This document shows positions 26,004 to 53,390 of a DNA stretch of 53,390 bases, piece by piece. A program made the translations under genes and the position numbers. Position 1 is the stretch's first letter. Each line of letters opens with the position of its first letter. The notes under the pieces were generated by a model. The model was not told the DNA's origin, made no database searches, and saw only the letters and a list, made by a program, of their open reading frames with translations. This DNA is from an uncultured Anaeroplasma sp. (GTDB lineage: Bacteria; Bacillota_I; Bacilli_A; Acholeplasmatales; Anaeroplasmataceae): the NCBI GenBank assembly GCA_934216145.1, contig CAKQBG010000006.1, positions 1 to 53,390 of the forward strand, in the 5' to 3' direction.

Positions 26004-29000
26004 TTAAGCTTTTTTCTTGTTAGTTTTAGAAATAATTAAAATAATAATTACTCCAATTAATATTCCACCTAAAGCAGAAAGAGAAATTATTGCCCATAAA
26101 GGGAATGAATTAACTACTTCAGTTAAAATAATTCTTTGATTTGAATTATTCATTTGAATTACTACATAATCACCATATTGAGTTGTATCTAATGCACTAT
26201 CAGAATCACTATATGTAATCTTATAGCTCTTATTATCTTTATTCTTCATTTTAATAACAAAATTATCTATTTCAATAATTTCATTATTATATTTGAATTC
26301 GGCATATAAAGTATTACCATATTTATAAATCTTAACAGTTGTACCTTCCTTGAAGCTACCCTCAATTAGATAGTTCTCATAGCTTAATGTTGTAATAATT
26401 TGAGTATATGAAGCATAAACATTTTGATTTACAAAATCATAAGTATTATTATCCCAATTAACAATATAATTACCAGAATCAGTTTTATATATGTATTGGT
26501 TATTAATTAATTCGGCATATTGGAACTTAGGATATAGTTTAATTTCATCATTATAGTAGAATCTATAAGTATCAATTAATTCATATTTTTCCTTTTCATC
26601 AATATCTCCACTATCCTGATTCCATTCAAAGAAATTAATTTGAATAGAAATACAAGCATATTTATCCTCTAAATCAAAGAATTTTCTATGATATTTATTA
26701 AATAATTCTTCCATATCATAATCAACATCTTTGAAATTATCATTTTCTTTATAAAATTCAAATTCTCTTAAATATGGATATGAATATTCATTCTTACCAC
26801 CAATGAAGCCATCTTGTGCGAAATCTATATCTAAATAAGGAGATAGAATATCCTTACTAGCTAGCTCATTAGATTCTAGCTTTTTTGCCATATCTAAAGA
26901 ATCAGCACCAAAGTTGTATTTATAAATACCATTATATTCAGAACCAATAAAATAATTATATTTAATATTATCATTTTTTGTATCAGCAAAAGGTAAGCCA
27001 TCAACATAGCCTATAACATATCCAACATATTCAGTAGCTTCATTCTTTTCCATAATTAGAGTATTAGAAATTGAAGATATTAATTTACCACTAGATGTCA
27101 TATATCCAATAATACCACCAATATAATCATTACCAATTAGATTAGTAGTAGAATAAGCATATCTAACAGTACCACCATTATATCCAATAATACCACCAAC
27201 ATATTTACCCTGATTAACACCAGATGCTTTAATTGTAAAAGTAGCAAATACTGATTCAGCTGTACCAGATGTTAAATAACCAATAATACCACCAGCATAT
27301 GAACCATTTTTTGCTTCAACATTACCACTAGAAATAGCGTTCTTTAGATTTAATCCTGTACTAGTAACTAAACCAATAATACCTGCAATATCATTTGAAC
27401 CATAAATATTACCTGTATTATATAAATATGTTAAATAATGCTTATTTAAATCAGTTTCCTCTGTATATTCAGAATAATCATTTTCATCTCTTAAAGAGCC
27501 ATAACAACCTATAATACCTCCAACATAGCTTAAGCCATTGATATTACCATTATTGAAATCATAATAATACATACCAGTAGATAGACCACAAATACCACCC
27601 ACAAAGTTTCCGATATCCTTATATCCTACAATGTTATTATTTGTACATTCAGCAATAATGCCAGTTGAATAACCACAAATACCACCGATTCCTTCAATTG
27701 TTTTAGTAGAAGAATATGATTTATTATTTATTTCACCATTATTTGTACATTCATAAATCTTTCCACCATTAAATCCGGCAATACCACCAATATATCTTTC
27801 ACCATAAATATTACATTCGTTTACTACATCAGTAATAGTACCATATCCATAATTCTTATTAGATTCAACAACCTGATCATCATTCTCAAGCTTATAATTA
27901 GCATTATATCCAACTATACTACCAACATGATCTAGTCCCTTAACTAACCCTGAAATCTTGATATTAGAAATTGTACCATAGTTATAGCCTACAAATCCTA
28001 CATTACTAGCTTTATCAGCTGTGATAGTGATACTTACATTAAGTCTCTTTATTACCGCATTTTTTCCTAATACTCTAAAGAAGGCAATATTTGTTAATGA
28101 ATCATCTGTATTAAGATTTATATTTAATAATGAATGATAATTGCCATCAAATGTACCGTAGAAGGTATTAATCATTAAATTATCTTCTTTAACTTTAATA
28201 TCATTTGTTAAATAGAAATATTTATTGATAGAATATTCAGGATTTTCATTACAATTATTAATCATTGTAATAAAATCATCATAGCTTTCAATCTTTATTT
28301 CCTCATATTTAATATCATCGCGCTCTAGGCTATATTTGAAATATTGGTTTCTACCATATAAATGAGAATCACTAAATAAAATCTCATATGTACCAGCCAC
28401 ATTAAATGTAATATATTTTGTACCATTCTTATAGAAACTTAATCCATCTGTAATATATAAATCAGTATTTAATAAATCGTTATTAATAGTAATAAATAAT
28501 CTATATTGATCATAATCCTTATTATAGTCATCATCATCAGAATCAAGCTTAATGAATTTATAATCATCACTTAAATTAGTACTACCAAATTCAGTATATA
28601 AATAATTATTTTCCTCTGAAGCTAAATAGTAATTACCAAAATTCTTATCCTGAATATCTATTTTAGATGCATATACACCATTAACCTCAGTTAATGATAA
28701 TGTATACCATCCTATATAGCTACTTGTAAGCTTTGAAACAGTAGTATCATCATCATTATCATCATCAATAAGAATATAATCAGCAGGTCCCTTTAAATAG
28801 ATTGCATATTCAAGCTTAAAATCTATTACATTAATGAAGAATGATTCGGTTTTATAAATATTATCATTTGGATGATTTAAATCCTTTTGTAAAGGATATA
28901 AATTTTCACCATTATATTCTATAGGAGTAGCTTTATCATAATTAACATTTTTGAAGGATATGAAATATTCCTCTTCAATTTCAGGATATATTTGATAAAT

Positions 29001-29663
29001 ATAATCATCTCCAGAACCATATTCTCCATCCTCATTGAATTGATATGTTTTACCATCAGTTACTTTAGCAGGAGTATAGATAATATGATATTTACCAGTA
29101 GTTTTAATTGTATAGCTAGCTAATACATTTTCATCCTTACCTAATACCTCTATTACTTGATTTTCAGTTAATTCAACATTAGATGCTTCAAAGCTATCAT
29201 ATTTCTTTTGATAGGCATTGAATTCAAGAGTAATATTATTATCATCATCAAGCTTTAATGTATAGCTTCCCTTATTATATAAAGCATATGTATAATGACA
29301 ATCTGAAACATACATACCATCACTTACATGCTCATTATCATAATTAAAATCCTTTGAAAAGAAGATTGTATATGCTAGTGATGTTGATTCTTCAACTCTC
29401 ATTTCACTATTACTTTTAGAATAATACTTTTCACCCTTGCCATTAGTGATATAAAAAGCATCAATCTTACTTAATGTTACATTTTCTAAATAGAAGGTAT
29501 TATTATCTTCATTTTTTAACATTATATTTTTATTTTTTATTGCATAGTTTTCACTTTGGAAGCAAACATAATATGAATCTTCATTAGCTAAAACCTTAGT
29601 AGGAATAAAAAGTAAACTAAATATAAATAATAGACTAACTAAATATTTAAATATTTTTTTCAT
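26004..29663 (-). CDS. Large GLUG-repeat surface protein
   Basis: 1219 residues. An N-terminal signal peptide ends near VLANEDS (about residue 26), and a C-terminal membrane anchor (WAIISLSALGGILIGVIIILI) ends with KTNKKKA. From about residue 550 to 980 it carries at least eight GLUG-type repeats such as YIGGIAGFNGGKIYECTNNG and YVGGIIGYNGGTVRYAYS, predicted to stack as a beta-helix. The N-terminal half is beta-rich and resembles no domain I recognise. No LPxTG is seen; the end looks like a membrane anchor. AAGGAG is 8 bases ahead of the ATG. It overlaps the MMPL gene by 17 nt. Probably surface display, adhesion or polymer binding. Confidence 0.82.
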   Translation of the reverse strand: MKKIFKYLVSLLFIFSLLFIPTKVLANEDSYYVCFQSENYAIKNKNIMLKNEDNNTFYLENVTLSKIDAFYITNGKGEKYYSKSNSEMRVEESTSLAYTIFFSKDFNYDNEHVSDGMYVSDCHYTYALYNKGSYTLKLDDDNNITLEFNAYQKKYDSFEASNVELTENQVIEVLGKDENVLASYTIKTTGKYHIIYTPAKVTDGKTYQFNEDGEYGSGDDYIYQIYPEIEEEYFISFKNVNYDKATPIEYNGENLYPLQKDLNHPNDNIYKTESFFINVIDFKLEYAIYLKGPADYILIDDDNDDDTTVSKLTSSYIGWYTLSLTEVNGVYASKIDIQDKNFGNYYLASEENNYLYTEFGSTNLSDDYKFIKLDSDDDDYNKDYDQYRLFITINNDLLNTDLYITDGLSFYKNGTKYITFNVAGTYEILFSDSHLYGRNQYFKYSLERDDIKYEEIKIESYDDFITMINNCNENPEYSINKYFYLTNDIKVKEDNLMINTFYGTFDGNYHSLLNINLNTDDSLTNIAFFRVLGKNAVIKRLNVSITITADKASNVGFVGYNYGTISNIKISGLVKGLDHVGSIVGYNANYKLENDDQVVESNKNYGYGTITDVVNECNIYGERYIGGIAGFNGGKIYECTNNGEINNKSYSSTKTIEGIGGICGYSTGIIAECTNNNIVGYKDIGNFVGGICGLSTGMYYYDFNNGNINGLSYVGGIIGCYGSLRDENDYSEYTEETDLNKHYLTYLYNTGNIYGSNDIAGIIGLVTSTGLNLKNAISSGNVEAKNGSYAGGIIGYLTSGTAESVFATFTIKASGVNQGKYVGGIIGYNGGTVRYAYSTTNLIGNDYIGGIIGYMTSSGKLISSISNTLIMEKNEATEYVGYVIGYVDGLPFADTKNDNIKYNYFIGSEYNGIYKYNFGADSLDMAKKLESNELASKDILSPYLDIDFAQDGFIGGKNEYSYPYLREFEFYKENDNFKDVDYDMEELFNKYHRKFFDLEDKYACISIQINFFEWNQDSGDIDEKEKYELIDTYRFYYNDEIKLYPKFQYAELINNQYIYKTDSGNYIVNWDNNTYDFVNQNVYASYTQIITTLSYENYLIEGSFKEGTTVKIYKYGNTLYAEFKYNNEIIEIDNFVIKMKNKDNKSYKITYSDSDSALDTTQYGDYVVIQMNNSNQRIILTEVVNSFPLWAIISLSALGGILIGVIIILIISKTNKKKA

Positions 29664-42589: not shown

Positions 42590-43567
42590 ATGAAGATAGT
42601 ATTTAAGGATATTTGTAAATCCTTCGGTGAATTTAAAATTGAAAATTTAAATATAGTTATAAATGATAATTCATTTTTTACATTATTAGGACCATCTGGT
42701 TGCGGAAAGACCACAATATTAAGAATGATATCTGGACTTGAAACTCCTGATAGTGGTGAAATATATTTTGATGATGAATGTGTTTTTTCTAAGGAAAAGA
42801 AAATTAATAAGCCTGTTGAAAAAAGAAATTTAGGCTTTGTGTTTCAAGATTTTGCCTTATGGCCTCATATGACAGTATTTGAAAATGTAGCTTTTCCACT
42901 TAAAGCTAGAAAGGATAAAGAGAATCTAAATAAAAGAGTAGAGGATGTTTTAAAAATAGTAGAACTAGCTGGTTATGAGAAAAGATATCCATCAGAGCTT
43001 TCTGGCGGACAGATGCAAAGAGTATCCTTAGCTAGAGCGATTATAGCTAATCCTAGGTGTATATTATTTGATGAACCATTATCAGCACTTGATGCGATAT
43101 TAAGGGATGAGATGAGAGCGTCTATTAAAAGAATTATAACTAATTATAATATGACTGCTGTATTTGTTACACATGATCAGTTTGAAGCAATGAGCTTAAG
43201 CGATGAAATATTAGTTTTAAATCAAGGAAGGGTAATGCAATTAGATAATCCTATAAATTTATATAATAATCCTAATAATAAATTTGTTGCTAAATTCATA
43301 GGTAAGTCAAATTGGATTGATAATAATACCTTCTTTAGACCTGAGGATTTATCATTTGATTATATTAATAATTCTGAGGTTTTTCAGTGTATTATTACAT
43401 CATTTATTTTTATTGGTGAAAGATATCAAATGGAACTTAGATATGAAAATCAAAAATGGATAGCCTTTTCTAATGAAAAATTTGGATATAATCAGAAAAT
43501 TTCTGTTTATATAGATAAAAATAAAATAATAAAATTTGGAGGAGAAAATGAAAAAATTATTGTTTAG
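42590..43567 (+). CDS. ABC transporter ATPase, Fe3+/phosphonate (FbpC-like) type
   Basis: 325 residues. Walker A is GPSGCGKTTILRM (about 34-46), the Q-loop VFQDFALWPHMTV, the signature LSGGQMQRVSLARAI and Walker B ILFDEPLSALDA. The switch is VTHDQFEAMSLSDEI. The C-terminal OB region is short. This CUT-like subfamily pairs with Fe3+, 2-aminoethylphosphonate, thiamine or spermidine importers. It starts an operon with the binding protein (20-nt overlap) and a fused permease. GGTGAAG precedes the ATG. Confidence 0.88.
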   Translation: MKIVFKDICKSFGEFKIENLNIVINDNSFFTLLGPSGCGKTTILRMISGLETPDSGEIYFDDECVFSKEKKINKPVEKRNLGFVFQDFALWPHMTVFENVAFPLKARKDKENLNKRVEDVLKIVELAGYEKRYPSELSGGQMQRVSLARAIIANPRCILFDEPLSALDAILRDEMRASIKRIITNYNMTAVFVTHDQFEAMSLSDEILVLNQGRVMQLDNPINLYNNPNNKFVAKFIGKSNWIDNNTFFRPEDLSFDYINNSEVFQCIITSFIFIGERYQMELRYENQKWIAFSNEKFGYNQKISVYIDKNKIIKFGGENEKIIV

Positions 43568-44540
43568 TTTTGGTGGTGTAATGCTTGTAGGATTAATGCT
43601 TGCATCATGTAAAAATGAATCGAAGGAGGTTAATGTATATATGCCTAGTCCTTCATCATTGAATGAAAAATATATTCAACAGTTTGAGGATAAAACAGGT
43701 ATAACTGTTAATTACTTTGAGGGTACAACCGGTGAAATATTAGCTAAGCTTGAAAGTGAAAAGAGTAATCCGATTGCGGATGTTGTTGTTTTAGCATCAT
43801 GGAGTGATGGCTTGAATTATGCTGAGAATAATGAATTATTAAGTTTTACGCCTTTAAATAGTGATAAGCTATATAGTGGCTGGAAGAATGATGATAATAC
43901 ATTATTTGGAACATCAGCTTCAGCATTAGGTGTTATTTATAATACAAATCAAATAGAATCTCTTGATGCAGATTGGAAGGATTTTACTAAGGCTGAATAC
44001 AAGGATTTAGTATGTATTCCTAATGGTGCTAAATCAGGATCATTTAAGGATTTTATGGCTGGATATATGTATTCATTTAGTAGTGATAAAGCTAATTTAG
44101 ATTATTCTACATGGGAAGGTATAGCTAATAATGGATTATCAATTCCAGGTGCTAATAAGGCTGCACTTCAGGCTGTAATATCAGGTGAAAAGGCTATATT
44201 AATTGGTGGAGTTGATTATAATGCTTATACTAGTATTGCTAAAAAGGAAGCTATAAAGATTTATTATCCAAAGAGTGGAACTTTAATTAACCCAAGACCA
44301 GCAATGGTATTAAAGAGTAGTAAAAATCAAGAAAATGCTAAAAAATTTGTTGAATATCTATTAAGTGATGATGCTCAAAAGCTTGTTAGTAATGCTTATT
44401 TATTACCTGGTAGAAGTGATATAACTTGTACTAATAGAACTAATGTTTCTGATATTCCTCAATTTAGTACTGATTGGGAATGGATGAGAAAAAATTCTGA
44501 TACAATAATAAAGAAAATAAATAGTCTTTGTACAAAGTAG
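43548..44540 (+). CDS. ABC transporter solute-binding lipoprotein (FbpA/PhnS-like)
   Basis: 330 residues from ATG 43548 (TTGGAGGAG ahead; located inside the ATPase gene). A lipoprotein signal ends LASC (Cys21). The mature part reads NEKYIQQFEDKTGITVNYFE, then GTTGEILAKLESEKSNPIADVV, the FbpA-like type 2 periplasmic fold. FLVEYLLSDDA-type text near the end also fits. The Fe3+-binding Tyr pair is not obvious by eye, so another oxyanion or phosphonate ligand is possible. The permease starts 9 nt after the stop. Confidence 0.83.
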   Translation: MKKLLFSFGGVMLVGLMLASCKNESKEVNVYMPSPSSLNEKYIQQFEDKTGITVNYFEGTTGEILAKLESEKSNPIADVVVLASWSDGLNYAENNELLSFTPLNSDKLYSGWKNDDNTLFGTSASALGVIYNTNQIESLDADWKDFTKAEYKDLVCIPNGAKSGSFKDFMAGYMYSFSSDKANLDYSTWEGIANNGLSIPGANKAALQAVISGEKAILIGGVDYNAYTSIAKKEAIKIYYPKSGTLINPRPAMVLKSSKNQENAKKFVEYLLSDDAQKLVSNAYLLPGRSDITCTNRTNVSDIPQFSTDWEWMRKNSDTIIKKINSLCTK

Positions 44541-44549
44541 GATAAATAT

Positions 44550-46217
44550 ATGGAGGTATCAAAATTTAGAAATATCACTAAGATATTAATTATAGTAGTA
44601 GCTTTAATAATACTAATCATACTTCCAGTCATTTCAGTATTTTCTAAAGCGGTCATCATTGATGGTCATTTTAGTTTATCTTTATTCTTTGAAGCTTTAT
44701 TTAAGCTTGAAAATTTAAAGACAATTGGTAATTCATTACTATTAGGTCTTTTAGTAGCTTTATTATCTACACTAATTGCTACACCATTAGCCTTCATCCT
44801 ATCTAGGACTAAATATAGTAAATCTAAAGCATTAGATATAATATTATTAATTCCTTTTATGACTCCACCTTATATATCATCAATGGGATGGATTTCATTT
44901 ATTCAGAGAAATGGCTTGTTTGAACAACTAATTCCTTTTACAGGTCATTCTATTGAGGGATTGTTTTCATTGTTTGGACTTGTATTAATAATGAGCCTTC
45001 ATGTTTTTCCTTTTCTTACAACTCTTTTAAAGAATGCTATTTTAAATATAGGACCTAGTATCGATGAAAGTGCTAAGGTGTGTGGAGGAGGATTTTTCTA
45101 TAGATTAAGAAGAATAACCTTTCCATTATTAACAGGAAACTACGCAATTGGCTTATTATTAGTATTTATTAAAACATTATCAGAATATGGTACTCCAGCT
45201 ACATTTGGATATCGTATAGGCTTTAAGGTTTTTACTACTGATATTCATGATTATGCTACTATTGCGCCTATTAATTTTTCACTTGCTTCAAGTCTATCTA
45301 GTGTTTTAGTAATTATATGTATGATTTTATGGTTAGTTCAATCTAAAATTACTGAGAAAAAAACATATAAGCTATTAGGTGGTAAAGGTGCTAAAAGGAC
45401 TATTTATAATAATAAAATAGTTAATATATTAAGTACCATTTATTTAATAATTATAATAATTTTAGCTATTGTAATTCCTTATTTTTCTATAATATCAACA
45501 TCATTAATTAATGTTAAAACATCTGGATTAAGATTTGACAATTTAACATTTGATAATTATATTTATTTATTTAATTCTAGAGGTTCTTTAAATGCGATTA
45601 AAACTAGTACCCTAATGGCTTTAATCTCAGCTACTATTTCATCATTATTTGCTTTAATATTAGTGTTATTACTAAGAAAGAATAAAAAAATTAAAAAGCC
45701 ATTGATGGCTATTGCGACATTACCAGAAATGATACCTAATATTGTATTAGTATTAGGATTGATGATATTTTGGAATACTATTTATAATATAATACCAGTA
45801 TATAATACAAATATATTTATGGCATTAGTATATATAGTTATGTTTTTACCATATGGTATTCAATATATATCTAATTCATTTATGCAAATAAATGATTCAT
45901 TATTTAATGCTGGAAGAGTGTGTGGTGCTAAAAAGTTTTATTTAACTATTAAAATAATTCTTCCTTTAATTTTTAAAGGTATATTATTTGGTTGGATGAT
46001 GATTTTTATAATAGTATTTAGAGAGCTAGTTGCCTCAAGCTTAGTATCTCCTTTAGGAACTAGAACTATATCGACTTACATTGTTAGTCAATTTAACCAA
46101 GGAGAAGTAGGAGTAGGAATGGCTATGGCTGTAGTTTGTGTTTTGATTTCAACTTCTGCATTAATTTTATTAAATATATTTTCTAATAAGAGTGTTAAAT
46201 ATGAAAAAAATAAATGA
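44550..46217 (+). CDS. Fused ABC permease (FbpB-like, two halves)
   Basis: 555 residues with about 12 hydrophobic segments, twice the size of a single permease. Each half has an EAA-type loop (VCGGGFFYRLRRITFPLLTG near 175, VCGAKKFYLTIKIILPLIFK near 473) that docks on the ATPase. The fused layout is typical of Fe3+ and 2-aminoethylphosphonate importers (FbpB/PhnV). ATATGGAGG overlaps the start region. The 3' end overlaps the HD gene by 17 nt. Confidence 0.87.
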   Translation: MEVSKFRNITKILIIVVALIILIILPVISVFSKAVIIDGHFSLSLFFEALFKLENLKTIGNSLLLGLLVALLSTLIATPLAFILSRTKYSKSKALDIILLIPFMTPPYISSMGWISFIQRNGLFEQLIPFTGHSIEGLFSLFGLVLIMSLHVFPFLTTLLKNAILNIGPSIDESAKVCGGGFFYRLRRITFPLLTGNYAIGLLLVFIKTLSEYGTPATFGYRIGFKVFTTDIHDYATIAPINFSLASSLSSVLVIICMILWLVQSKITEKKTYKLLGGKGAKRTIYNNKIVNILSTIYLIIIIILAIVIPYFSIISTSLINVKTSGLRFDNLTFDNYIYLFNSRGSLNAIKTSTLMALISATISSLFALILVLLLRKNKKIKKPLMAIATLPEMIPNIVLVLGLMIFWNTIYNIIPVYNTNIFMALVYIVMFLPYGIQYISNSFMQINDSLFNAGRVCGAKKFYLTIKIILPLIFKGILFGWMMIFIIVFRELVASSLVSPLGTRTISTYIVSQFNQGEVGVGMAMAVVCVLISTSALILLNIFSNKSVKYEKNK

Positions 46218-46758
46218 AATTGAAAATATTGTTATTAATTCTAATGAATATTGGGCAATTCATAGTAGACTTGTTTCTATAAATGCTAAAACACTTGCAG
46301 AAATGTTAGGCTTAGATTCTAAAAGAGCTTATTATTATGGATTGTTCCATGATATAGGAAGAATGTATCATTTAGATGATTTCTCACATTTATATAAAGG
46401 CTTCGATTTTTTATTCCATAATCTAGGCTTTAGCTATGCAAGAATTTGTATTACACATGCCTTTCCTATTAAAAATGTTTTATCCTTTAATGGTGAAATA
46501 ACTAATAATGATATGAAAGAATTTATTATTAATTTTCTAAATGAAATTAATTATGATATATATGATTTATTGATTCAATTATGTGATTCTATTTCCGTAG
46601 ATAAAACTATTACTATCGAAAAAAGATATGAGCTTCTTAAGCTTAAAAATAAATGGAATGAATATACTAATGATAAAATTAATAGATTGAATGATATTAA
46701 AAGCTATTTTGATAAATTATTAGGTAATGATATTTATAAAATATTAAATATAAAATAA
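46201..46758 (+). CDS. HD-domain protein
   Basis: 185 residues from ATG 46201 (the upstream ATG at 46192 lacks a better site). The HD motif is in YYYGLFHDIGRMYH (His-Asp near 53-54); IHSRLVSINAKTLAEML precedes it, and later ICITHAFPI and QLCDSIS supply further metal ligands. HD proteins are metal-dependent phosphohydrolases. PhnZ-type HD oxygenases act on phosphonates, but this one shows no clear relation to PhnZ. Overlap with the permease by 17 nt places it in the ABC operon, suggesting it works on the imported compound or on signalling. Confidence 0.72.
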   Translation: MKKINEIENIVINSNEYWAIHSRLVSINAKTLAEMLGLDSKRAYYYGLFHDIGRMYHLDDFSHLYKGFDFLFHNLGFSYARICITHAFPIKNVLSFNGEITNNDMKEFIINFLNEINYDIYDLLIQLCDSISVDKTITIEKRYELLKLKNKWNEYTNDKINRLNDIKSYFDKLLGNDIYKILNIK

Positions 46759-48287: not shown

Positions 48288-48344
48288 ATTATATAGTAAA
48301 TAATAGCTTATGTCCATTTTTTGGGACATAGTTTTTGTTATAAT
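48288..48344. promoter_or_regulatory. Divergent promoters with a shared palindrome
   Basis: TATGTCC (48309-48315) and GGACATA (48324-48330) form a 7-8-7 inverted repeat. The minus-strand -35 TGGACA (48316-48311) lies in it, 17 bases from TATAAT (48293-48288) for the WYL gene. The plus-strand -10 TATAAT (48339-48344) for the small gene is 9 bases beyond it. A bound WYL protein would cover both promoters. Confidence 0.6.
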
Positions 48345-48370
48345 CAAATTAGTTAAAGGAGGATACATTT

Positions 48371-48601
48371 ATGACAATTGAAGAGGTATTAGTTAAATAT
48401 TATGGTGAGGAAGCTCAATATGTAGTAGGTAGACTATATAAGATTGGAGATAAAAAGGTATTTTATTCTTTAGGAAAGCCTTCACAGGTAGGTAATGATA
48501 AAATTGAATTTATAGATGGTAAGCTTTATAGGATTGGAAAGAATATCGTTAAATATCGAAGATCTAATGTTTTAGCTATAGGTAATGTTAAAATTAAATA
48601 G
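48371..48601 (+). CDS. Small beta-repeat protein divergent from WYL regulator
   Basis: 76 residues with four short similar units: LYKIGDKKVFYS, SQVGNDKIEFIDG, LYRIGKNIVKYR and VLAIGNVKI. Each has an IG or VG turn followed by a strand, so an all-beta fold is likely. No known family recognised. AAAGGAGG lies 8 bases before the ATG. It is the only gene facing the WYL regulator and its probable target. The N-terminal 15 residues are helical (TIEEVLVKYYGEEA). Function unknown. Confidence 0.6.
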   Translation: MTIEEVLVKYYGEEAQYVVGRLYKIGDKKVFYSLGKPSQVGNDKIEFIDGKLYRIGKNIVKYRRSNVLAIGNVKIK

Positions 48602-48637
48602 AGTTATCAATATTAATAGTATTTAATAATAAAATGT

Positions 48638-48804
48638 TATACTAAAGAATTGATAATTATAAAAAGCTAGATTAGTTTTCTAATTTGAATGGAATTTATA
48701 AGTATGTAGTTATCTTTTAAGCTAGATATTTATTAGTTAGGATTAACTACTTAATTAATAATTATGAGTCAAATATTGATTTTTTCTTATTAATATGTTA
48801 TATT
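48638..48804 (+). promoter_or_regulatory. Region ahead of scfA with a promoter
   Basis: The 245-nt gap 48602-48846 contains an extended -10 (TGT-TATACT, hexamer 48638-48643) of unknown use, a few small hairpins (TAGTTA-GGAT-TAACTA) and, nearest the gene, TTGATT (48776-48781) with TATATT (48799-48804, extended TG, 17-base spacer). The last is the likely scfA promoter. I recognise no RNA family here. Confidence 0.5.
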
Positions 48805-48846
48805 TAATTGTACAAATTTTTATATATAAAAATAGGAGGAATTGTT

Positions 48847-49002
48847 ATGAAACATATTAATACAATTAAAACTCGTAATCTTTGTTCTAGCGCTAAGAAC
48901 GGTGGATGTGGTGAATGCCAAACTTCTTGCCAATCTGCTTGTAAGACAAGTTGTGGTATTGCAAACCAAAAGTGCGAAAATAAAAAAGAGATTAGAAAGT
49001 AA
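48847..49002 (+). CDS. scfA: SCIFF peptide precursor (seven-Cys variant)
   Basis: 51 residues from ATG 48847 (AGGAGG 7 bases ahead; an upstream in-frame start at 48808 is in the promoter region). MKHINTIKTRN, then GGCGECQTSCQSACKTSC and NQKCE, is the near-invariant SCIFF (six cysteines in forty-five) precursor: Cys21, 24, 28, 32, 36 and 43. The maturase gene follows, and makes Cys-to-Thr thioether links in relatives. Unlike the usual six, this one has a seventh at Cys13 in the leader and a longer charged tail (KKEIRK). Its biological role is unknown in any organism. Confidence 0.95.
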   Translation: MKHINTIKTRNLCSSAKNGGCGECQTSCQSACKTSCGIANQKCENKKEIRK

Positions 49003-49015
49003 TCTTTGAAAGAAT

Positions 49016-49037
49016 GCCGCCTATATGGCGGCTTTTT
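49016..49037 (+). terminator. GC hairpin between scfA and scfB
   Basis: GCCGCC (49016-49021) pairs with GGCGGC (49027-49032), loop TATAT, followed by TTTTT. A partial terminator here would let the peptide be made in excess over the maturase. Confidence 0.75.
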
Positions 49038-49061
49038 CAGTGATTAGAAATGAGGTAGAAA

Positions 49062-50453
49062 ATGATTCATCAATATAAATTAAATGGATATAATATAGTT
49101 TTAGATATCAATTCAGGCTCTGTTCATGTTGTCGATGATGTTGCGTATGATATTATAGCTTTATTTGAAAATAATAATAAGAATGAAATTGTCCAAGAAA
49201 TAGAGGAAAAATATAGTAATACCTTAGGCGTTTCTAGGGAAGAAATTGAACAATGTTATGATGAGGTTAATGAATTAAAGGAATCTGGTCAATTGTTTAC
49301 TGAGGATGTTTTTAAGCCTATTGCTAAAGAATTAAAGAAAAGAACATCTGGTGTTGTTAAGGCTTTATGCTTACATGTAGCTCATACTTGTAATTTAAAT
49401 TGCTCATATTGCTTTGCAAGTCAAGGTAAATATAATGGTGATAGAGCTGTTATGTCATTTGAGGTTGGTAAGCAGGCATTAGATTATTTAGTTCTTCATT
49501 CTGGAACTAGAAGAAACTTAGAGGTTGATTTCTTTGGTGGAGAGCCTTTATTAAATTTTGATGTTGTTAAGGATCTTGTAAAATATGCTAGAAGTATAGA
49601 AAAAGAAGCTAATAAGAATTTTAGATTTACATTAACTACTAATGGTATGTTAATTGATGATGATGTTATTGATTTTGCGAATAAGGAAATGAGTAATGTT
49701 GTATTAAGTCTAGATGGAAGAAAGGCAATTCATGATAGATTCCGTGTTGATTATAAGGGTAAAGGAAGCTTTGATACTATTGTTCCTAAATTCCAAAAGC
49801 TAGTAAAAGCTCGTGAAGGTAAGAATTATTATATGAGAGGTACATTCACTCATGCTAACCCTGACTTTTTAGAGGATATTAAGACAATGCTAGATTTAGG
49901 CTTTAATGAATTAAGTATGGAGCCTGTAGTATGTAGTAAGGATGATCCTTCTCATTTAACGGATGAAGATATAGAAATTGTTTTAAAGCAATATGAGGAT
50001 TTAGCTAAGCTTATGATTGAGCGTAGAAGAGAGGGAAGACCATTTACCTTCTATCATTATATGATTGATTTAAGTGGTGGTCCTTGTATTTATAAGAGAA
50101 TTTCTGGATGTGGTTCTGGTACTGAATATATGGCTGTAACTCCTTGGGGTGATTTATATCCATGTCATCAGTTTGTTGGTGATGAGAAGTTTAAGCTTGG
50201 TAATATTTGGGATGGTGTAACAAATACTGATATTCAAAATGAATTTGCTTCTTGTAATGTTTATGCAAGAGAAAAGTGTAATGACTGCTGGGCTAGATTA
50301 TATTGTTCAGGTGGATGTAGCGCTAATGCTTATCACGCAACAGGTAGTATTACTGGAGTATATGAGAGCGGATGTGAATTATTTAGAAAGAGAATAGAAT
50401 GTGCAATTATGGTTGCAATTTCTGAAATGGATGATGAAAACGCCAATAATTGA
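49062..50453 (+). CDS. scfB: Radical SAM SCIFF maturase
   Basis: 463 residues. The N-terminal 90 residues look like an RRE-type peptide-binding domain. The radical SAM cluster is CNLNCSYC (Cys110, 114, 117), followed by FFGGEP. The C-terminal SPASM region is Cys-rich (GPCIYKRISGCGSG; YPCHQF; CNVYAREKCNDCWARLYCSGGCSANA), binding auxiliary [4Fe-4S] clusters. It makes thioether crosslinks in the SCIFF peptide (CteB type). TGAGG sits upstream of the ATG. The 3' end overlaps the decarboxylase by 20 nt. Confidence 0.95.
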   Translation: MIHQYKLNGYNIVLDINSGSVHVVDDVAYDIIALFENNNKNEIVQEIEEKYSNTLGVSREEIEQCYDEVNELKESGQLFTEDVFKPIAKELKKRTSGVVKALCLHVAHTCNLNCSYCFASQGKYNGDRAVMSFEVGKQALDYLVLHSGTRRNLEVDFFGGEPLLNFDVVKDLVKYARSIEKEANKNFRFTLTTNGMLIDDDVIDFANKEMSNVVLSLDGRKAIHDRFRVDYKGKGSFDTIVPKFQKLVKAREGKNYYMRGTFTHANPDFLEDIKTMLDLGFNELSMEPVVCSKDDPSHLTDEDIEIVLKQYEDLAKLMIERRREGRPFTFYHYMIDLSGGPCIYKRISGCGSGTEYMAVTPWGDLYPCHQFVGDEKFKLGNIWDGVTNTDIQNEFASCNVYAREKCNDCWARLYCSGGCSANAYHATGSITGVYESGCELFRKRIECAIMVAISEMDDENANN

Positions 50454-51771
50454 TTTTGTTAGAGAATATAATGATAAGAAAGCTATTCGTCTTCATATGC
50501 CAGGCCATAAGGGAAAAAATCTTTTAGGCTTTGAGGAATATGATATTACAGAAATTGATGGGGCTGATGTTTTATATCATTCTGATGGAATTATATTAGA
50601 AAGTGAAAAAAATGCTTCGGAGATTTTTGAATCTAATACCTTTTATTCAGCTGAAGGATCATCTTTATGTATTAGGGCAATGCTATTTTTATCTATGAGT
50701 AAAAATAAGAGTAAAAGACCTTATGTTTTAGCAGCTAGAAATGTACATAAAACATTTGTTACTGCAGCTAGTTTATTAGATTTTGATGTTAAATGGCTTT
50801 ATTCAAAGGATAATTTATCTTATCATTCTTGTCATATAACAAAAGAAATGGTTGAAAATGAATTAAGTAGTGCTAAGGAATTACCATTTGCAGTATATTT
50901 AACAAGTCCTGATTATTTAGGCTATATAGCTGATATTAAGGGTATAGCTTTGGTATGTAGGAAGTATAATGTTTTATTATTAGTAGATAACGCCCATGGT
51001 GCGTATTTAAAGTTTTTAGAAAAATCATATCATCCTATAGATTTAGGTGCTGATATGTGCTGTGATTCAGCTCATAAAACACTGCCTGCTGTAACAGGTG
51101 CGGCTTATTTACATATTTCTAAAAATATTGATAGCTATTATTCACTTCACGCTAAAGAGGCTTTAGGCTTATTTGCATCAACTAGTCCTTCATATTTGAT
51201 ATTACAATCTTTAGATTATGTTAATTTATATATAGCTAATAATAGAAATATATATATTGATTTTTGTAATAAACTAAAAGAAGTAAGAAAGCAATTAATT
51301 GATAATGGCTTTATTCTTTTAGGGGATGAGGATATGAAGCTTACAATTGATGCGAAAAAATATGGCTATACTGGTAATGAAATGTCTGATTATTTATTAA
51401 AAAATAATATTGTATCAGAATTTCATGATGAGGATTATCTTGTTTTAATGCTTACACCAGAAAATACTGATAGTGAGCTATTAAAATTAAAAGATGTTTT
51501 ATTAGCTCTTCCTAAAAGGAAAGAGCTTAATAGAGTTGAATTTATTCCTAAGAAAAAGGAAACCATTATGTCTATTAGAGAAGCAACATTCTCTTTAAGA
51601 GAAAGGGTTAAGGTAGAGGATGCCATAAATCAAATATTAGCTGATACACAAGTATCATGTCCTCCTGCTATACCTATTGTTGTTTCAGGAGAAAGAATAG
51701 ATATAAGTGATGTAGAAATGTTTAAATATTATGGAGTTGATGAATGCTCCATCGTAAAAAATGATATTTAA
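50434..51771 (+). CDS. Orn/Lys/Arg decarboxylase (PLP fold, short form)
   Basis: 445 residues from ATG 50434, which gives the usual MxTPIxDFV start; no clear Shine-Dalgarno site, so coupling to scfB (20-nt overlap) is likely. RLHMPGHKGKN is the family N-terminal motif. The PLP lysine is in DSAHKTLPAVTG near residue 220. The C-terminal domain has RVEFIPKKKE and CPPAIPIVVSGE. This short form (as in Bacillus YaaO/SpeA) decarboxylates Lys, Orn or Arg; the substrate is not readable. Located upstream of efp, it may supply a C4/C5 amine. Confidence 0.88.
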   Translation: MKTPIIDFVREYNDKKAIRLHMPGHKGKNLLGFEEYDITEIDGADVLYHSDGIILESEKNASEIFESNTFYSAEGSSLCIRAMLFLSMSKNKSKRPYVLAARNVHKTFVTAASLLDFDVKWLYSKDNLSYHSCHITKEMVENELSSAKELPFAVYLTSPDYLGYIADIKGIALVCRKYNVLLLVDNAHGAYLKFLEKSYHPIDLGADMCCDSAHKTLPAVTGAAYLHISKNIDSYYSLHAKEALGLFASTSPSYLILQSLDYVNLYIANNRNIYIDFCNKLKEVRKQLIDNGFILLGDEDMKLTIDAKKYGYTGNEMSDYLLKNNIVSEFHDEDYLVLMLTPENTDSELLKLKDVLLALPKRKELNRVEFIPKKKETIMSIREATFSLRERVKVEDAINQILADTQVSCPPAIPIVVSGERIDISDVEMFKYYGVDECSIVKNDI

Positions 51772-51774
51772 TTT

Positions 51775-51817
51775 ATGTAATTAATAGTTAAAATAGTAAA
51801 ATATATTACATTTTTTT
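51775..51817 (+). terminator. Possible terminator of the scf-decarboxylase operon
   Basis: ATGTAAT (51775-51781) pairs with ATTACAT (51805-51811), with a 23-nt loop, then seven T. A second weak hairpin (51822-51842) follows. Both are AT-rich, so read-through to efp is possible. Confidence 0.4.
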
Positions 51818-51846
51818 CAATATCAAAGATAAAAATCTTGATTTTA

Positions 51847-51874
51847 TTTACATATAAAGATAAAATTATATTAT
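51847..51874 (+). promoter_or_regulatory. Candidate promoter of efp
   Basis: TTTACA (51847-51852) and TATTAT (51869-51874) with a 16-base spacer. AAAAGGAG and ATG 51904 follow. Confidence 0.45.
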
Positions 51875-51903
51875 ATTAGTTATAAAAAAAGGAGAATTTA
51901 TAT

Positions 51904-52461
51904 ATGGCAATTGAAGCTGGAGATTTTAGAAACGGATTAACATTAATTATTGATGGTAAATTATATGTTGTACTTGAATTTATGCATGTAAAACCTGGTA
52001 AGGGTGCTGCAATTCTTAAGACAAAGCTTAAGGATTTAAGAACTGGTACAGTATTAGAAAGAAACTTCAACACAAATACAAAGTTTGAACAAGCAATGAT
52101 TGAAACTAAGCCTGTTCAATATTCATATGAGGCTGGCGGAACATATTTCTTTATGGACATGGAAACATTTGAGACTTATGAGTTATCTGCAGATGCTGTT
52201 GGTGATAATAAGTATTATTTACTAGAAGGTATGGAAATTAGCTTACGTTTCTTTGAGACTGAGGTATTAGGTATTGTTATGCCTGATAAGGTTACTTTAG
52301 TAGTTACTGAAACTACAGATGCTGCACCGGGTGCTTCATCTACATCTACAAAGGATGCAGTATTAGAGACTGGCTTAAGATTAAGAGTACCTCAATTCAT
52401 TAAGCAAGGCGAGAAGATTATTGTTTCAACTCTTGATGGATCTTATTCAAGTAGAGCTTAA
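51904..52461 (+). CDS. efp: Elongation factor P
   Basis: 185 residues, three beta-barrel domains. Domain I holds the tip loop KPGKGAA with Lys33, the site that other bacteria modify. Domain II begins near TKPVQYSYEAGG, and domain III ends with LRLRVPQFIKQGEKIIVST. EF-P relieves ribosome stalling at polyproline. The loop is the Bacillus-like KPGKGAA type, so the modification may be 5-aminopentanol rather than lysyl or rhamnosyl. GGAG lies 9 bases before the ATG. Its stop is 3 nt before the SDR start. Confidence 0.95.
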   Translation: MAIEAGDFRNGLTLIIDGKLYVVLEFMHVKPGKGAAILKTKLKDLRTGTVLERNFNTNTKFEQAMIETKPVQYSYEAGGTYFFMDMETFETYELSADAVGDNKYYLLEGMEISLRFFETEVLGIVMPDKVTLVVTETTDAAPGASSTSTKDAVLETGLRLRVPQFIKQGEKIIVSTLDGSYSSRA

Positions 52462-52464
52462 TCA

Positions 52465-53208
52465 ATGGCAAAGGTTGCATTAGTTACAGGCAGTGCTAAG
52501 GGTATTGGTGCTGCAATTATCGAGGAATTAGCTTTAAGTGGCTATGATTGTGTAATTAATTATAATACTTCTAGGGATTTAGCTTATAAGCTTTATTATA
52601 AAATAAAAGACTATGGTATTAGAGCTTTAGTTATTAAATGTGATGTTAGTGATGAAGCTTCAGTTAATGAAATGTTTAATGAAATTGAGTCTAAACTTGG
52701 TGGAGTTGATATTCTAGTTAATAATGCCGCAGTTGATATTCCTGAACTTTTTAGTAGAAAAAAAGTTGAGGATTTTAGAAAAACCTTAGATGTTAATTTA
52801 ATTGGAGCCTTTTTAACAGCTAAAAGAGCTGAAAGACATATGCTTGATAATAAATGGGGACGTGTAATTAACATTTCCTCAACTAATGGGATGAATACAT
52901 ATTATCCTATGGGTATAGAATATGATGCTTCTAAGGCAGCATTAAATTCTTTAACTCATAATCTTGCAATAGAATTCGCACCATATGTAACAGTTAACGC
53001 AGTTGCTCCAGGATTGATAGGTACTGAGTCTGAAATAGCTGATTATGATGATGAATTTATGCAAATGGAGCTAGATAAAATTCTAGTAAGAAGAATTGGA
53101 GAAGCAAAAGAGGTAGCTAAGCTTGTTAAATTTTTAGTTAGTGATGATGCTTCATATATTAATAATTCAATTATTAGAATTGATGGTGGACAATATAGTA
53201 GTAATTAG
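52465..53208 (+). CDS. SDR reductase downstream of efp (YmfI-like or FabG-like)
   Basis: 247 residues, classical short-chain dehydrogenase. TGSAKGIG (8-15) is the NAD(P) loop, NNAAVD follows, INISSTNG supplies Ser near 138 and YDASKAA the Tyr-x3-Lys near 153. VTVNAVAPGLIGT and INNSIIRIDGGQYS complete it. Sequence alone resembles FabG. Genomic position (3 nt after efp, no fab genes nearby) supports an EF-P 5-aminopentanone reductase of the YmfI type. No ribosome binding site beyond the efp tail, so translation is probably coupled. Confidence 0.87.
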   Translation: MAKVALVTGSAKGIGAAIIEELALSGYDCVINYNTSRDLAYKLYYKIKDYGIRALVIKCDVSDEASVNEMFNEIESKLGGVDILVNNAAVDIPELFSRKKVEDFRKTLDVNLIGAFLTAKRAERHMLDNKWGRVINISSTNGMNTYYPMGIEYDASKAALNSLTHNLAIEFAPYVTVNAVAPGLIGTESEIADYDDEFMQMELDKILVRRIGEAKEVAKLVKFLVSDDASYINNSIIRIDGGQYSSN

Positions 53209-53214
53209 ATATAG

Positions 53215-53242
53215 AAGGATGTTAAATGACATCCTTTTTTTT
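53215..53242 (+). terminator. Terminator of the efp-SDR operon
   Basis: AAGGATGT (53215-53222) pairs with ACATCCTT (53229-53236), loop TAAATG, then T residues to 53242. Confidence 0.85.
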
Positions 53243-53244
53243 AT

Positions 53245-53269
53245 AAAAAAAAGAGGACTAAGTCCTCTT
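53245..53269 (-). terminator. Minus-strand terminator at the right edge
   Basis: AAGAGGACT (53251-53259) and AGTCCTCTT (53261-53269) form a hairpin; on the minus strand a run of T residues follows. It implies a gene entering from the right. Confidence 0.65.
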
Positions 53270-53278
53270 AATAATTTG

Positions 53279-53390
53279 CTAAAAGAATAGGTTCTTTAAA
53301 TTCTGAGGTAGGTAGGTAGTTACCCTCTTAAAAATTGAGGTAGGCAATGATTTAATACCTCTTTTCCATTTTAAGGTAGTTATGTATACA
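53279..53390 (-). CDS. Possible 3' end of a minus-strand gene
   Basis: From the window edge one minus-strand frame stays open for 36 codons and stops at TAG (53281-53279), 10 nt before the minus-strand terminator. The text (SLPTSIFKRVTTYLPQNLKN) is not recognised. The DNA here has GGTAG-type repeats (near 53306-53320 and 53373-53380), so it could also be non-coding repeat DNA. Only the placement next to the terminator supports a gene. Confidence 0.3.
   Translation of the reverse strand, partial: VYITTLKWKRGIKSLPTSIFKRVTTYLPQNLKNLFF

Follow-up and report, generated by a model that had tools for sequence, protein, structure and literature searches.

An efp-SDR gene pair as the probable center of a compact gene module for EF-P modification beside a SCIFF cluster in an uncultured Anaeroplasma

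Near the end of a 53,390-nucleotide stretch of an uncultured Anaeroplasma sp. (contig CAKQBG010000006.1; the whole stretch is hereafter the window), genes for a decarboxylase, elongation factor P (EF-P) and an SDR reductase follow one another, raising the question of whether they form a single locus for EF-P modification. EF-P modifications vary among bacteria. In Bacillus subtilis, 5-aminopentanol modification of EF-P requires YnbB and YmfI, with GsaB strictly required and YaaO, YfkA and YwlG accessory (PMC5885033). YaaO, which belongs to the decarboxylase family, increases how much EF-P is modified, and YfkA also influences modification (PMC5885033); a passage of PMC8503589 gives YaaO's own activity as still to be determined. 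We consider it probable that a compact module for modifying EF-P is built around efp and the SDR gene, seen in relatives as an efp-SDR pair facing ynbB, and that the decarboxylase belongs mainly to a neighboring SCIFF system.

The three genes that the earlier note had joined into one candidate locus are in place (Table 1), with PF01276 and TIGR00038 matches above cut-off for the decarboxylase and EF-P, and rechecked coordinates give the gaps it reported: 132 nt between the decarboxylase gene and efp, and 3 nt between efp and the SDR gene. The EF-P loop reads KPGKGAA with Lys33, again as described, providing a modifiable lysine in a KPGKG loop as in the B. subtilis-type pathway. A search for ynbB within the window (tblastn, and Pfam on 40 ORFs) found none; the window stops 182 nt past the SDR gene. 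The earlier note is silent on scfA and scfB, which lie just upstream of the decarboxylase gene. The SCIFF precursor and ScfB are adjacent and both score above cut-off; scfA precedes scfB, and the start of the decarboxylase gene overlaps the end of scfB by 20 nt.

Table 1. Features at the end of the window, with the basis for each assignment.
Feature	Position	Strand	Basis
scfA, SCIFF six-cysteine ranthipeptide precursor, 51 aa	48847..49002	+	PF13165 80.7 bits; TIGR03973 78.3 bits, cut-off 50
Terminator-like hairpin, scfA/scfB gap	49016..49032	+	6 G-C pairs then T run
scfB, radical SAM/SPASM SCIFF maturase, 463 aa	49062..50453	+	TIGR03974 777.5 bits, cut-off 425
Short Orn/Lys/Arg-decarboxylase-family PLP enzyme, 445 aa from ATG	50434..51771	+	PF01276 106.7 bits, cut-off 27
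Promoter-like site TTTACA-16-TATTAT, just 5' of efp	51847..51874	+	10/12 match, joint best of region; suggestive only
efp, elongation factor P	51904..52461	+	TIGR00038 214 bits, cut-off 185.8
Lys33 codon, presumed modified residue	52000..52002	+	Sequence; equivalence to B. subtilis Lys32 presumed from loop position
SDR reductase, EF-P-linked clade	52465..53208	+	PF13561/PF00106; alignment; tree clade
Terminator-like hairpin 3' of the SDR gene	53213..53238	+	Scan of 48300-53390

The pairing of efp with this SDR gene is far beyond chance. At 79 of 80 SDR loci, from 59 distinct genomes, efp lies immediately 5' on the same strand, and the sequence of the sole exception (L201) begins 130 bases before the SDR gene. 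The KPGKGAAIL(K/R)T loop is kept in all 45 SDR-linked EF-Ps compared, the window's own included, and a second EF-P in five genomes (G001, G123, G124, G147 and G148) is without KPGKG. A decarboxylase gene near efp is rare: efp and the SDR gene appear together in the fetched flank of just one of 80 decarboxylase loci, though flanks under 8 kb are common (32 loci upstream and 29 downstream).

The SDR is also tied to a YnbB-family enzyme. Across 244 genomes of the Erysipelatoclostridium order, which includes G002, the SDR was found in 107 and YnbB in 109, with both in 107 and the SDR alone in none (raw counts, kinship ignored). The SDR and ynbB genes of these 107 carriers lie within 300 bp of each other in 74 cases, all convergent; 27 further pairs are more distant on one contig and six are on different contigs. 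In the order of G001, five of 160 genomes encode the SDR and four of these five encode YnbB; the contig of the fifth (G123) stops 60 bases beyond the SDR gene. Because the efp-SDR unit is linked by both location and co-inheritance to this family, a role for the SDR in EF-P modification is likely, and the near-perfect co-occurrence, together with the need for YnbB in B. subtilis, makes an EF-P modification module the most likely function of efp-SDR-(ynbB).

The window's SDR carries the classical SDR motif, TGxxxGIG with an N-S-YxxxK active site, and the active-site residues N111, S139, Y153 and K157 are invariant in the alignment. A role in EF-P modification finds support, and orthology to YmfI does not: the SDR scores 157.7 bits against the YmfI model NF047420 (cut-off 238), no protein in the 244 Erysipelatoclostridium-order genomes exceeds that cut-off, and in the tree (18 of 80 SDR loci, L320 as a partial sequence) the EF-P-linked SDRs sit on a long stem and form a clade of their own (100/100 support), to which neither YmfI nor FabG belongs. 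The residues before the catalytic Tyr also differ, STNGxNTYYPM in the SDR vs SMWGxxGASCE in, for instance, L081 and L082. We therefore reject the SDR as a YmfI ortholog. A metabolic reductase of the FabG kind, cotranscribed with efp by chance, would fit the best NCBIfam scores, which are to FabG models (200.3 and 197.8 bits), yet both are under cut-off (297.75 for TIGR01830, which gave 197.8 bits). The earlier note had named a grouping with true FabG as an outcome against its proposal; in the tree, the SDR falls outside the FabG proteins with fab neighbors, one of which (L086) comes from a genome (G002) that also carries the SDR. The fab neighbors of the FabG comparators were assigned by simple motifs. 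Identity with FabG was rejected on these scores and the tree, and, with YnbB co-inherited in every one of the 107 carriers, an ordinary metabolic role appears improbable.

The decarboxylase keeps different company. Just upstream of its gene lies scfB in 77 of 80 relatives; all three exceptions are near contig ends. In a tree of 27 of the 80 loci, the enzyme falls in a SCIFF-associated clade with 100/100 support, apart from the SpeA/YaaO-type decarboxylases. Thus, its gene takes third place in a SCIFF ranthipeptide cluster, after scfA and scfB, and its associations suggest that it mostly serves that system, which resembles known SCIFF systems (TIGR03973/TIGR03974) in having scfA and scfB and differs in this conserved short decarboxylase. 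Passages on SCIFF in PMC5300114, PMC8326336 and PMC12703449 do not mention this gene, and among the matches listed from the open-licence PMC literature, no title or abstract beginning describes a SCIFF decarboxylase. A motif search for tmk or spe genes beside the decarboxylases gave nothing useful.

The S. aureus YaaO homolog 2X3L belongs to the same family and matches the decarboxylase over nearly its full length (E 1.6e-36), but with 28.5% identity, and it groups with the SpeA/YaaO-type enzymes, outside the SCIFF-linked clade, as a single YaaO anchor on a long branch. On this placement, we rejected the decarboxylase as an ortholog of 2X3L. With the window's protein as query (E 1e-10), 86 of the 107 SDR carriers have no Orn/Lys/Arg decarboxylase match. 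Elsewhere, G148 has no PF01276 match, and G123 and G124 encode another decarboxylase of 480-odd aa that belongs to the SpeA/YaaO-type group. Since its partner is scfB and most SDR carriers are without a match, the decarboxylase was also rejected as a core EF-P gene.

The SCIFF-decarboxylase cluster does adjoin the EF-P module more than once. The window has the order scfA-scfB-decarboxylase-efp-SDR. In G002 and G169, efp-SDR is followed by the decarboxylase gene, scfB and ynbB in the opposite orientation, so that the decarboxylase gene and scfB separate ynbB from the SDR gene. In G001, efp-SDR and a reversed ynbB are followed by scfA-scfB-decarboxylase, spread over two contigs. Among Clostridia, L003 has ynbB directly 3' of the decarboxylase gene, and L034 has it 5' of scfA. 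These several arrangements could reflect one larger EF-P pathway in which the SCIFF peptide, ScfB and the decarboxylase, where present, supply or carry a precursor for efp-SDR-ynbB. A simple Poisson count expects about 0.05-0.09 such neighborhoods by chance for the 12 genomes of G002's order that carry this decarboxylase type. YfkA, a radical SAM protein, also affects modification in B. subtilis. However, G002 and G169 have common flanks and count as one case; in 10 of the 12 carriers, the decarboxylase gene is not beside the SDR gene as assembled (eight on another contig, one more than 1 Mb away, one without the SDR); and in Clostridia, YnbB is encoded in 45 of 50 genomes with this decarboxylase (a count covering 50 of the 80 decarboxylase loci) but lies in the fetched flank of only two. 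The SDR-ynbB junction also accepts many unrelated inserts, of which 15 proteins were scanned. Because flanks are shared and junctions are insertion-prone, we did not accept a SCIFF-to-EF-P link from the Poisson count, and we assign the larger pathway a low probability. The compact-module reading treats the three arrangements (window, G001 and G002/G169) as coincidence.

Least probable is the original single locus, in which the decarboxylase would make cadaverine from lysine for attachment to EF-P Lys33 and reduction by the SDR: the shared strand and short gap to efp, the effect of YaaO in B. subtilis, the recurrent adjacency just described, the presence of the SDR in 11 of the 12 carriers of this decarboxylase type and the longest contigs of the two nearest relatives, which have the same lengths for decarboxylase and SDR (68739 and 103845) and so probably carry the two genes together, are outweighed by the scfB partnership, the many SDR carriers without a decarboxylase match, the position of 2X3L, and the failure of cadaverine feeding to restore modification in B. 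subtilis (PMC5885033). With no decarboxylase match in most carriers and a module that differs in detail from that of B. subtilis, cadaverine supply and the decarboxylase as source of the C5 amine are both unsupported.

As in the B. subtilis pathway, the proposed efp-SDR-ynbB module has a KPGKG-loop EF-P to which an SDR and, in relatives, a PLP enzyme of the YnbB family are tied. It differs in that the genes cluster with efp, that the SDR belongs to another clade than YmfI, and that most carriers are without the decarboxylase and without a strong GsaB/HemL-like protein. Among these relatives, TIGR00713, a model that cannot separate GsaB from HemL, reaches at least 460 bits in four of the 107 SDR carriers; G392 and G402 score 256-260 bits, and none of the five SDR carriers in the order of G001 exceeds 141 bits. 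As GsaB is required in B. subtilis and mostly missing here, the B. subtilis chemistry is not simply transferable. We suggest that the YnbB-type enzyme may build or attach on Lys33 a short carbon chain that bears a carbonyl, and that the SDR would act last, reducing the carbonyl to an alcohol; it would thereby take on the final reduction of YmfI, also a classical SDR, without orthology to it. With the GsaB-like aminotransferase and the lysine/arginine decarboxylase missing in most carriers, the final group on Lys33 may differ from 5-aminopentanol. More tentatively, efp-SDR-ynbB could be a portable, GsaB-free cassette that puts a chemically new group on Lys33, made by the YnbB-type PLP enzyme and finished by a reductase of an origin separate from that of YmfI; the Anaeroplasma group would have gained it, and the older EF-P there would then have lost its modifiable loop. 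This is a possibility on which we place less weight.

Co-inherited in more than 100 genomes, mostly without GsaB and YmfI, the three-gene module places EF-P beside its likely modifying enzymes and offers a small, testable set for finding the role of YnbB and the group that is made. No title or abstract beginning among the matches listed from the open-licence PMC literature describes an efp-SDR-YnbB cluster. The decarboxylase question is now separate from that of EF-P, and the SCIFF system is revealed to have a conserved third gene.

Regarding candidate transcription signals in positions 48300-53390, terminator-like sites number nine, against 1.4 expected, and promoter-like sites number 21, below the shuffled level of 31.1.

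We regard it as likely that efp, the SDR gene and ynbB, which encodes a YnbB-family PLP enzyme, form a module, and that the neighboring decarboxylase gene belongs to the SCIFF cluster. An earlier note had read the decarboxylase, efp and SDR as one candidate EF-P modification locus. Its coordinates and spacings hold in the window, as does the KPGKGAA loop with Lys33, and the proposed efp-SDR pairing is borne out by a survey of SDR loci. The efp gene lies directly upstream of the SDR gene on the same strand in 79 of 80 SDR loci (59 distinct genomes), and the sole locus with no efp seen, L201, begins 130 bases ahead of the SDR gene. The gap is 3 nt in the window and in all five SDR-carrying genomes from the order of G001 (Anaeroplasma sp. 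SUG234, the genome of locus L001). Anaeroplasma and Anaeroplasmataceae records are the nearest named relatives.

Features of the window and of related loci
Feature	Position	Strand	Remark
scfA, SCIFF peptide gene	48847-49002	+	upstream of scfB
scfB, SCIFF maturase	49062-50453	+	TIGR03974 777.5 bits
Decarboxylase (Orn/Lys/Arg-decarboxylase family)	50434-51771	+	SCIFF-associated type
efp	51904-52461	+	TIGR00038 214 bits vs cut-off 185.8
Lys33 codon of efp	52000-52002		
SDR	52465-53208	+	EF-P-linked clade
Second EF-P genes	L321:1070-1627, L322:1109-1666, L323:1000-1578, L324:1038-1601, L325:968-1537		beside aroK/aroQ-like genes (named by eye)
EF-P-like gene, genome G322	L294:564-1121	-	adjoins ynbB

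The third partner is ynbB. Its family, PF06838, was detected in four of 160 genomes from the order of G001, and these four all carry the SDR; the one other SDR carrier, G123, has a contig that stops 60 bases beyond the SDR gene. In G124, G147 and G148, ynbB faces the SDR gene directly, and G148 has an additional partial PF06838 copy at another site. The ynbB of G001 is in two fragments with a 47-residue overlap, at the ends of contigs C71 (past the SDR gene) and C95 (ahead of scfA). These are most likely one gene split at a contig end, and the arrangement pieced together from the two contigs is most likely efp-SDR, ynbB reversed, then scfA-scfB-decarboxylase. In the window, which stops 182 nt past the SDR gene after a terminator-like hairpin, ynbB was not seen. 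Co-inheritance was sampled in 244 genomes from the order of G002 (Erysipelatoclostridium sp. An173, the genome of locus L026), which we take to be Erysipelotrichales. The SDR occurs in 107, YnbB in 109, both in 107 and the SDR alone in none, with YnbB lacking the SDR in G227 and G328 (Fisher's P = 2.6e-68, kinship ignored). The two genes lie within 300 bp in 74 of the 107, convergent in all 74; another 27 have them farther apart on one contig and six on separate contigs. A gene family just 5' of efp (L297:816-2039 and 28 further loci) accompanies most module loci in this order, and two scanned members match the PnuC-like NMN transporter family PF04973. Genome G322 carries a normal efp-SDR pair and also a protein that resembles EF-P at 40% identity but lacks the KPGKG loop.

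In B. subtilis, 5-aminopentanol on EF-P depends on YnbB and YmfI (PMC5885033). That a YnbB-family enzyme and an SDR both travel with efp therefore points to EF-P modification. From location, co-inheritance and clades, all directly observed, we infer that Lys33 would most likely be worked on first by the YnbB-type enzyme and then by the SDR, whose reduction of a carbonyl would be the final step. Each of the 45 SDR-linked EF-Ps examined, including that of the window, has the motif KPGKGAAIL(K/R)T, and SDR-linked EF-Ps form one clade (100/100). A second EF-P in G001, G123, G124, G147 and G148 lies on the opposite side of the tree and, by its sequence (HVLQNKVA vs HVKPGKGAA), seems to have lost the modifiable loop.

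The module resembles the pathway of B. subtilis but departs from it in two tested defining features, a YmfI ortholog and GsaB (the latter tested in relatives). The window SDR scores 157.7 bits against YmfI (cut-off 238) and 197.8 against the FabG equivalog (cut-off 297.75). Its clade (100/100, long stem) leaves out four Clostridia proteins above the YmfI cut-off and FabG proteins with fab neighbors. We therefore rejected it both as a YmfI ortholog, none of the 244 genomes from the order of G002 having YmfI above cut-off, and as a true FabG, a grouping that the earlier note had named as a refutation. Near-YmfI matches in these genomes number 29, with fab-like neighbors, judged by simple motifs, at 11 of 12 loci examined. 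HemL/GsaB-like proteins of at least 460 bits, scored with a model that does not separate the two, occur in 16 of the 244 and four of the 107 SDR carriers; five more carriers have weaker matches (157-260 bits), and scores reach at most 141 bits in all five carriers from the order of G001. B. subtilis GsaB is 48% identical to HemL, according to a passage of PMC6522883. We found no paper describing an efp-SDR-YnbB cluster in the open-licence PMC literature.

The proposal that the decarboxylase supplies the C5 amine fared poorly. Any Orn/Lys/Arg decarboxylase was detected in 42 of the 244 genomes and 21 of the 107 SDR carriers, leaving 86 without a match (E 1e-10, window protein as query; many draft genomes), and feeding cadaverine and 5-aminolevulinate to B. 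subtilis yaaO and gsaB mutants restored no modification (PMC5885033). Excerpts elsewhere describe YaaO's activity as yet to be determined (PMC8503589), its role as remaining to be elucidated (PMC6522883) or as indirect (PMC11381351). Of the five SDR carriers from the order of G001, G001 itself has the SCIFF type, while G123 and G124 each have a protein of the SpeA/YaaO type; PF01276 gave a single weak match in G147, under the cut-off, and nothing in G148.

The decarboxylase keeps company with scfB, whose end overlaps its start by 20 nt in the window, an overlap absent from the earlier note. A genome-contig scan confirmed 385 relatives, of which the best 80 were kept. In 77 of these, scfB sits upstream in the same orientation, never more than 948 nt away and no more than 124 nt away in 75 cases. 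The three loci without scfB (L037, L055, L080) have under 700 bases ahead of the match, and scfA is present in 73 of the 80. Downstream genes differ between genomes. Both efp and the SDR gene fell inside the fetched flank of one locus, L026; the upstream flank measures under 8 kb at 32 of the 80 loci and the downstream flank at 29. SCIFF-associated decarboxylases form a single clade (100/100), separate from longer SpeA/YaaO-type proteins; both kinds occur in G002 and G003. A YaaO homologue from S. aureus, 2X3L, with 28.5% identity, is placed outside the SCIFF clade on a long branch. In S. aureus, yaaO precedes tmk, as an extract of PMC8503589 reports. The scfA peptide, ScfB and the short decarboxylase (window 48847-51771; L001-L080) make up a conserved set, mostly in Clostridia.

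Besides the window, the SCIFF cluster adjoins EF-P genes in G001 and in the related genomes G002 and G169; in the latter two it sits between SDR and ynbB (L303, L304). A functional link might be read from the order of G002, in which 12 of 244 genomes have a SCIFF-type decarboxylase (>340 bits) and 11 of these carry the SDR (Fisher P 0.0006, kinship ignored), with 0.05-0.09 neighborhoods expected among the 12 by a simple Poisson estimate. Against this, many unrelated insertions are seen between the SDR gene and ynbB: 10 of 15 scanned insert proteins had Pfam matches (HTH, IS110 transposase, FtsX, Ig-like, MFS, FAD oxidoreductase, ABC-type membrane protein, family 4 glycosyl hydrolase, carboxylesterase, ABC ATPase) and five had none. 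In this order scfB adjoins the decarboxylase in nine of 11 genomes examined and is absent at L331 and L332. Shared flanks suggest one event for G002 and G169; the Anaeroplasma-group decarboxylase does not cluster with theirs in trees, which makes separate origins probable for the two placements. Among Clostridia decarboxylase genomes, 45 of 50 have ynbB, inside the fetched flank only at L003 and L034.

Elsewhere in the window, a 1219-aa protein (26004-29663, minus strand) that matched nothing in Pfam at E 1e-6 adjoins an MMPL-family protein, and an ABC transporter (42590-46758; ATPase, binding protein and fused permease, the last nearest the 2-aminoethylphosphonate type at a score below cut-off) is followed by an HD-domain protein.
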